Source of the DNA: Synechococcus sp. RSCCF101
GTDB lineage: Bacteria > Cyanobacteriota > Cyanobacteriia > PCC-6307 > Cyanobiaceae
DNA length: 64,000 nucleotides
NCBI RefSeq assembly: GCF_008807075.1
Contig: NZ_CP035632.1
Location: forward strand, 620,001 to 684,000
Direction: 5' to 3'
Shown: positions 11,116 to 64,000 of the stretch, in pieces
How positions within the stretch are numbered: position 1 is the first letter of the stretch
Layout of the letters: every line of letters starts with the position of its first letter
Made by a program: the position numbers and the translations under genes
Notes under the pieces: model-generated
What the model was told of the DNA's origin: nothing
The model's input: only the letters and a program-made list of their open reading frames with translations
The model's database searches: none

Positions 11116-11948
11116 TCAGCGGTCACCGGGCCTGCCCAGCCATTGCAGCAGGGCCGGTGCGGTGAGCCGGTGATGGGTGAGCCCGCGGGGCACGGGGGGA
11201 GCAGCAGGCGCTTCGAGAATCAGCCGGGTGAGCCCGCCCGCCCGGGCGATGCGGTGCCAGCTCTCTTCATTGGCTCCCCCGGAGGCGCGGAACAGCACAG
11301 CCTCGATGCCCCAGCGGCGGCACAGTCCGGCCTCCACCGCCCCGGGGAGGCCGCCCGTGGCGAGGGGCCCGGGGCGCAGACAGGCCAGCCGCCCGGCCCG
11401 GATCCCCGCGGCGAGGGCCAGCCGGATGGCACGCGGCTCCGGCAGCACCCGGGCATGAAGGACGGCACCGGGAAGCAGCGGAACCAGTGCGGCCAGGTGC
11501 CGGCTGCCGATGGCCAGGAGCAGCCGGCGGCGGCGCAGATCCACCTCGACCAGATCCTGCATCTGCTTCAGGCGCAGCATGGGCGCGGCCGATTCGGTCC
11601 CGGAGGCGACCGCCATGCCGCCGTCGCGGCGAAGCAGACGGATCAGGGGCTGGGCCTCCGCGCTGCAGGCCTCCAGCAGCTGCCCCCTCACGGTGGTGGC
11701 GAAGGGATGGGTGGCGTCGATGACCCAGCTGAACGGATCGCCGGTTGCCCGGGCCTGCCGCAGCTCCCGGACCACGGCCCCGGCTCCTTTCAGCGGGCCC
11801 ACCCGCAGCGCCAGCGCCTCATGCGGGGGTAGGCCTCCGCGGCGCTGGCACTGACCACGCTGAGCTGAATGCGCCAGCCCCGGGCCAGCAGTGCAGCGGC
11901 CAGGGGAGGGCCGTCGCCGGTGCCCGCCAGCATCCACAGCCTGCCCAT
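11116..11948 (-). pseudogene. cobK: Precorrin-6A reductase CobK, frame broken at a C-run
   Basis: CobK reduces precorrin-6A in cobalamin (B12) synthesis. The N-terminal part (start ATG 11946-11948; MGRLWMLAGTGDGPPLAAAL, then VVSASAAEAYP) is in one frame. The remainder, from PPHEALALRVGPL through the family signature WVIDATHPFA to IGSRHLAAL and the C-terminus, is in the frame one base back. The switch falls at a run of five C on the coding strand (11825-11829 as G on plus). One extra C would restore a continuous 277-aa protein. Everything else is intact, so a sequencing or assembly error, a recent mutation, or slippage are all possible. It is divergent from ssb, with 50 bp between the starts. 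Confidence 0.85.
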
Positions 11949-62081: not shown

Positions 62082-64000
62082 TCAGTGCGGCTGCTGTCCG
62101 GTCGCCGGTCCCGTCTCCGAAGTGGCGCTGCCCGCCAGCAGGGCACTGAGCAGCACCAGCAGGGTGCTGCCGTTGTGGAGGAGCGAGGCCTGCACCGGCG
62201 TGAGACCGCCCAGGGCCGCACTGATGAGCAGGCCGGTGTTGACCACCACCGTGGCTTCCGCGTTGCGCTGCACACGGCCCATGGCACAGCCGGCCAGCTC
62301 CATCGCCTCGGCCACACAGCCGATGTCGTCCTCCAGGAGGGTGATGTCGGCCGAGAGCTGGGCGATGTCGGCGCCGCGCTGCATCGCCAGCCCCACATCG
62401 GCGGCCGCCAGGGCGGGGGCGTCGTTGATGCCATCGCCCACGAACAGCACGGTCCGGCCGTCGCGGCAGAGCGCCCGCACGATCTCGGCCTTCTGTTCGG
62501 GAAGCAGCTCGGCCAGGCTCCGGTCGAGGCCGCAGTGGGCCGCGATCCGCTCGGCCACATCGCGCTGATCGCCGCTGAGCATCAGCACCTCCTTCACGCC
62601 GAGGGAGCGGAGCCGCGCCACCGTGGCGGCGCTGCCGGCCCGCACCTGGTCCTCCAGGGCGAGCACTCCGATCAGACGGCGGCCACGGCCGATGTAGAGG
62701 AGGCTCTTGCCCTGGCGCCACAGCGCCTCGATCGCGGCGCGATGGGGGGTGTCGTCCACCCCCTCGTCCTCCACCACGAAGTGGCGCGAGCCCACCACGA
62801 CCCGCTCCCCCTGGATGGTGGCGGCCACACCGTGGGCCACGATGAACTCCACCTCGCTGTGGCGGAAGTGGTGGTAGCCCCGGCCGCAGGCCGCCTCCAC
62901 CACAGCCAGGGCCAGCGGGTGGACGCTGTGCTCCTCGATCGAGGCCGCCAGGCTGAGCAGGTCGTCGGCGCTGGTGCCGCCGTCGAAGGAGAGGCTGTCG
63001 GTCACCGCGAGACGACCGGTGGTGAGGGTTCCGGTCTTGTCGAACACCACCGTGTCCACGGCGGCGAGGCGTTCCAGCGCGGCGGCTCCCTTGATCAGGC
63101 AGCCGCGCCGGCCGGCCCGGGCCATGGCCGCCTTGAAGGCCACGGGGATCGCCAGCTTGAGGGCGCAGCAGTAGTCGGCCTGGAGCACGGCGGCGGTGCG
63201 CGTCCAGTCACCGCTGGCCAGCTGGGTGAGCAGCGCCAGGCCGAACACCGCCGGCACCAGGCGGTCGGCCAGGGCGGAGGCCTGCAGCTGCACCTCCCCC
63301 TTGGAAGTGAGCGCCGTCTCCACCAGGGCGCCGATGCGGGAGGCCGCCGTCTGGGCGCCGACCCGCTCGGCGTAGATGATCAGCCGCCCCTCGAGCACCG
63401 CGGTGCCGGACATGACCCGGTCGCCCCGCCGGCGGGTCACCGGCAGGCTCTCGCCGGTCATGGCGGCTTCATCGACGCTGGCCTCACCGCTGAGCACGGT
63501 GCCATCGACCGGAATCACGCTGCCATGCTCCACCACCACGCTCTCGCCGCCGCGGAGTGCCTCGAGCGGGCAGCGCTGCTGATGGCCATCGACCAGCAGG
63601 TCCACGTGATCGTCCAGCGGGCGCAGCAGGGCGAGCAGCAGGGCATCGGAGCGACGCCGGATGCCGGCCTCCAGGTGTTCGCCCAGCAGCAGCAGGGCCG
63701 TGGTGGTGTTGGCGGCACCGCGGTCGCCGCGCAGCAGCGACACCAGCACCGCTGAGGCCTCCAGCAGGTGGGAGCCGAGATGCAGCCGGCCCAGCTCCTG
63801 CCAGGCCTGGCCCCAGACGGGCAGGGCGGTGAGGGCGGCCGCCGGCGTCTGCAGCTTCTGCGGCAGCAGCGGATTGAGCAGCAGGTTCAGCCCCCCCAGC
63901 GCCGCGGCGCGGTCGCTGCCGTCGCTCGGGGGGCAGCGAGGCGGGGCCGCAGGGGCAGGGGCTCCTCCAGCAGCAGTCGTTCGAGGCGCTCGCGATCCAG
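62082..64000 (-). CDS. P1B-type heavy-metal ATPase, partial at the right edge and frame-broken
   Basis: Membrane pump of the metal-transporting P-type family. From 63749 the frame gives TGES (98-101), the phosphorylation motif DKTGT (237-241), SVHP and GDGINDAP with the expected order. The membrane metal-site motif, usually CPC, reads YCC (193-195 in ADYCCALKLAIP). Upstream on the minus strand codon positions show a different frame near the edge: from 64000 the frame with codon-like third positions runs up to about 63933, then switches by one base at a run of C (63928-63933 as G on plus). The N-terminus lies outside the window. Likely metal specificity cannot be judged. Confidence 0.88.
   Translation of the reverse strand, partial: GSRAPRTTAAGGAPAPAAPPRCPPSDGSDRAAALGGLNLLLNPLLPQKLQTPAAALTALPVWGQAWQELGRLHLGSHLLEASAVLVSLLRGDRGAANTTTALLLLGEHLEAGIRRRSDALLLALLRPLDDHVDLLVDGHQQRCPLEALRGGESVVVEHGSVIPVDGTVLSGEASVDEAAMTGESLPVTRRRGDRVMSGTAVLEGRLIIYAERVGAQTAASRIGALVETALTSKGEVQLQASALADRLVPAVFGLALLTQLASGDWTRTAAVLQADYCCALKLAIPVAFKAAMARAGRRGCLIKGAAALERLAAVDTVVFDKTGTLTTGRLAVTDSLSFDGGTSADDLLSLAASIEEHSVHPLALAVVEAACGRGYHHFRHSEVEFIVAHGVAATIQGERVVVGSRHFVVEDEGVDDTPHRAAIEALWRQGKSLLYIGRGRRLIGVLALEDQVRAGSAATVARLRSLGVKEVLMLSGDQRDVAERIAAHCGLDRSLAELLPEQKAEIVRALCRDGRTVLFVGDGINDAPALAAADVGLAMQRGADIAQLSADITLLEDDIGCVAEAMELAGCAMGRVQRNAEATVVVNTGLLISAALGGLTPVQASLLHNGSTLLVLLSALLAGSATSETGPATGQQPH

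Follow-up and report, generated by a model that had tools for sequence, protein, structure and literature searches.

The cobK locus and its frame change

The DNA analysed here, a window of 64,000 nucleotides of Synechococcus sp. RSCCF101, corresponds to bases 620001-684000 of an assembly made up of one contig (C1) of 2,984,853 bp. G+C content amounts to 68.3% in the 1.264 Mb of the genome that was sampled, and the strain is recorded at 2.98 Mb with 68% G+C (PMC10669429). Two adjoining minus-strand frames near the left end of the window hold the parts of one cobK/cbiJ gene (Table 1). The N-terminal frame, MGRLWMLAGTGDGPPLAAALLARGWRIQLSVVSASAAEAYP, runs on into the residues RMRRWRCGWAR and a stop codon, whereas the downstream frame contains the VIDATHPFA motif and matches the Pfam family CbiJ (PF02571) with an E-value of 3.6e-27 and a score of 95.8 bits (cut-off 28.6). 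The frames and the family match thus agree with the original prediction, which had distributed a single CobK protein over them with VIDATHPFA in the C-terminal one. It had also located the switch at a run of five C, and the position is confirmed to the base.

Table 1. Features of the window discussed in the text (positions in the window).
Feature	Position	Strand	Details
cobK C-terminal frame	11116..11824	(-)	PHEALALRVGPLKG...VIDATHPFA... to stop
cobK N-terminal frame	11790..11948	(-)	ATG 11948, stop 11790; MGRLWMLAGTGDGPPL...SAAEAYP, then out-of-frame tail
C5 run (G5 on plus)	11825..11829	(-)	frame-change site, presumed missing base
P-type ATPase frame change	63891..63933	(-)	G7 (63891-63897) and C6 (63928-63933), both candidates

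As assembled, cobK/cbiJ does not form the single open reading frame of its family, since the frame changes at the C5 run. The gene contains both the N-terminal GTGxGP motif and the downstream DATHPFA motif, but in separate frames. Joined across the break, the read-through translation comprises 277 aa, the length that had been foreseen for a product with one more base. The frame switch is confined to an interval of a few bases, from a conserved Tyr (TAC) to the His (CAT) of many relatives; the chance of finding a G/C run of at least five within an 11-base span is 1.8%. A search of the whole genome for a second cobK returned only this one match.

A further frame change lies at the right edge of the window, in a gene for a P-type ATPase. 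The original prediction had described it as the same kind of break at a run of six; the frame change and the C6 run are both there, but a G7 run is equally a candidate for the site. An intact relative of the N-terminal part of this ATPase was searched for and not found. The right-edge break is probably an error of the same kind as that in cobK.

Comparison of cobK with its relatives

Among 300 genomes from the taxonomic family of the strain, cobK was detected in 282, and none of the 197 good-quality genomes lacks it. Alignment to relatives, the check suggested at the outset, places both motifs within one open frame in 43 of 43 aligned sequences, with the spacing across the break that the read-through translation predicts. 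The read-through sequence AYPPHEALALRVGPL is spaced identically to AYPAHPALELQVGAL of one relative (L022) and to similar sequences. RSCCF101 cobK shares with the CobK/CbiJ precorrin-6A reductases (PF02571) the family match, the N-terminal GTG(D/E)GPPL motif and VIDATHPFA, and differs from every aligned relative in occupying two frames instead of one.

Both halves of the gene retain nearly all conserved residues in the alignment to relatives. The N-terminal 41 residues have a mean identity of 57% to the relatives, compared with 58% among the relatives themselves, and no further decay is visible. The break aside, the cobK sequence looks sound. Relatives differ in the residue at the break, where they have G, E, R, P, A, S or D; the alignment consequently places the missing base within a few positions and leaves the identity of that base unfixed. 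A conserved recoding site at cobK was ruled out, because the break is absent from all aligned relatives.

Single-base losses elsewhere in the assembly

The scan for split genes compared 1.264 Mb of RSCCF101 with 1.6 Mb from the complete genome of a relative (G045, whose PriA is 61% identical). Thirteen of 461 orthologs are split over two frames in RSCCF101. Eleven of the 13 represent a net loss of one base, at or near G/C runs; eight of these measure exactly -1, and the other three, which measure +5, +8 or -7, were counted as -1 in phase once small in-frame gaps were allowed. Apart from one doubtful short hit, no net gain was found among the 13. The split at C1:1347282, a short doubtful hit, and that at C1:1154258, a transposase fragment, were set aside. 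The reverse control, in which the relative itself was tested for splits, gave no convincing frameshift; the apparent ones were interpreted as over-extended gene starts, echoes of the breaks in RSCCF101 and a transposase.

The longest G/C run at the junctions averages 5.4, as against a mean of 2.7 for randomly chosen places; no draw out of 5000 gave a value as high. For this test the junction of the FKBP gene had been widened by hand to include its C6 run, and cobK, which falls below the identity cut-off of the scan, had been added by hand. In the tested DNA, breaks fall at approximately 3 of the 41 G/C runs that are seven long and at approximately 3 of the 853 that are five long. Undercounting would give a break rate that rises with run length in this way, and so would replication slippage. 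The unrelated genes that carry the same defect include cysS, an FKBP-type isomerase, a Ppx-like gene and clpP at the contig start.

The cysS gene (C1:1438018-1439534) lies in two frames split at a G7 run, with both halves below the family cut-off, and no other copy was found in the genome. A cell cannot do without cysS. Since the gene is indispensable, at least the break in cysS must be an error. Likewise, cobA (C1:2200956-2201593), which encodes uroporphyrinogen-III C-methyltransferase, is divided into two frames at a G7 run; this enzyme is required for siroheme and B12.

A direct comparison of two assembled versions of the same DNA is provided by clpP, which the search recovered twice, split at C1:3585-4180 and intact at C1:2968438-2969034. 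The 3,597 bp around the intact copy (C1:2966938-2970534) match C1:2086-5679 with no mismatches and three single-base gaps. All three gaps are homopolymer losses in the copy at the contig start (AAA to AA, G5 to G4 in clpP, and C5 to C4 in the next gene), and two of the three shift the reading frame at places that the homology scan had already picked out, when the second copy had not yet come to light. The loss from C5 to C4 leaves a run shorter than the C5 of cobK, so that runs as short as that of cobK do lose bases in this assembly, here in a doubly assembled stretch at the contig end, where errors are more frequent than in the interior. The match implies that the last part of the contig carries the same sequence as the first over about 20 kb, an extent taken from the offset, with 3.6 kb compared. 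Repeated ends are the usual mark of an untrimmed circular contig, and the contig is probably of this type. The term draft, used in the original prediction, is apt inasmuch as the ends appear untrimmed and poorly polished, but not as regards contiguity, the genome being a single contig.

Elsewhere on the contig, C1:1225855-1253976 constitutes a single open frame of 11,377 aa, full of DUF5801 (PF19116) repeats; an 11,376-aa protein has been reported for Synechococcus sp. RSCCF101 (PMC9387257).

Origin of the cobK break and the B12 pathway

Taken on sequence comparison, the break in cobK is very probably an assembly artefact, a base missing from the consensus (probability about 0.93). This reading derives from the presence of the same defect in many genes, from its occurrence in the single-copy essential gene cysS and from the homopolymer losses between the two assembled copies of the contig ends; undercalling of homopolymers had been the first choice from the outset, with a real mutation or slippage as the alternatives, and the genome-wide losses at G/C runs bear it out. 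That the particular base in cobK is one of the errors of the assembly is what we infer from these data. The gene would then be intact in the cell, one base having been lost by the assembly in or next to the short C run, and the consensus would have undercounted G/C homopolymers in a 68% G+C genome, as in many genes of the contig. Intact cobK would encode the precorrin-6A reductase of the (pseudo)cobalamin pathway, an activity predicted for the product.

Errors of this type have been described for long reads. In a study of nanopore assembly, the main error consisted of deletions after homopolymers, mostly of four to five bases (PMC12007338). The single-base losses after short homopolymers and the resulting split genes are common to that study and to RSCCF101; the errors reported there are dominated by A/T runs, whereas those in the 68% G+C genome of RSCCF101 are found mostly at G/C runs.

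Some points speak against an artefact: the doubly assembled stretch comes from the error-dense contig end, the C5 run is short, with so few runs of its length located at breaks, and cobA and cbiB are split as well, as might be the case in a decaying pathway. The main rival is a real and recent one-base deletion in cobK, with precorrin-6A reduction lost and B12 obtained from the medium or from neighbours, which we regard as unlikely. The single-copy state of cobK and the splits in two further genes of its pathway are in line with it, and an auxotroph could persist in culture, given that PCR-S11, the medium listed for RSCCF101 (PMC10669429), contains added B12 when used for a related strain (PMC7393227). 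Against a real deletion, the same type of break affects cysS, which the cell cannot lose, and cobK is free of other decay. The remainder of the pathway argues in the same direction. Whether the other cob genes are intact was a further check suggested at the outset: open frames were found for cobI, cobJ, cobM, a cbiE domain, cbiC, cbiD and two GATase_3 genes (taken as cobB and cobQ), but not for cobA and cbiB, the split of cbiB/cobD (C1:687) falling within the error-rich contig start. The B12-dependent methionine synthase gene metH is present, which also counts against the deletion. A homologue of class II ribonucleotide reductase falls just short of its family cut-off. Selective decay of the B12 pathway was rejected, as most B12 genes tested are open and unrelated genes carry the same defect.

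It is very improbable that the C5 run is real and that the ribosome or RNA polymerase slips on it often enough to supply the full protein. The read-through product could arise if a Pro-tRNA paired with CCC moved back by one base and paired with CCC again, and the conserved programmed frame transitions known in prokaryotes (PMC3711429) resemble cobK in that one protein arises from two adjoining frames. Those transitions, however, recur in clusters of relatives, while the cobK break is a singleton supported by homology and, being absent from relatives, is not a conserved recoding site; homology-supported singletons are expected by the authors of that survey to be sequencing errors, and no cobK or precorrin case is named in its main text. 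Moreover, known sites of transcriptional realignment are often homopolymers of at least eight, or two shorter ones combined (PMC3711429), and slippage would have to restore the frame at unrelated runs in approximately 12 genes. The broadest version, in which the genome truly has these losses at its G/C runs and the lineage tolerates them throughout, in cysS and cobK alike, by slippage that restores the frame, is hardly credible.

The window gives nothing reliable on the B12 status of the strain. A literal reading of the assembly would point to a B12 auxotroph, or to a cell that lacks an intact cysteinyl-tRNA synthetase. As its breaks track homopolymers, this single-contig genome should be re-polished before lost genes, pseudogenes or a need for B12 are deduced from it.
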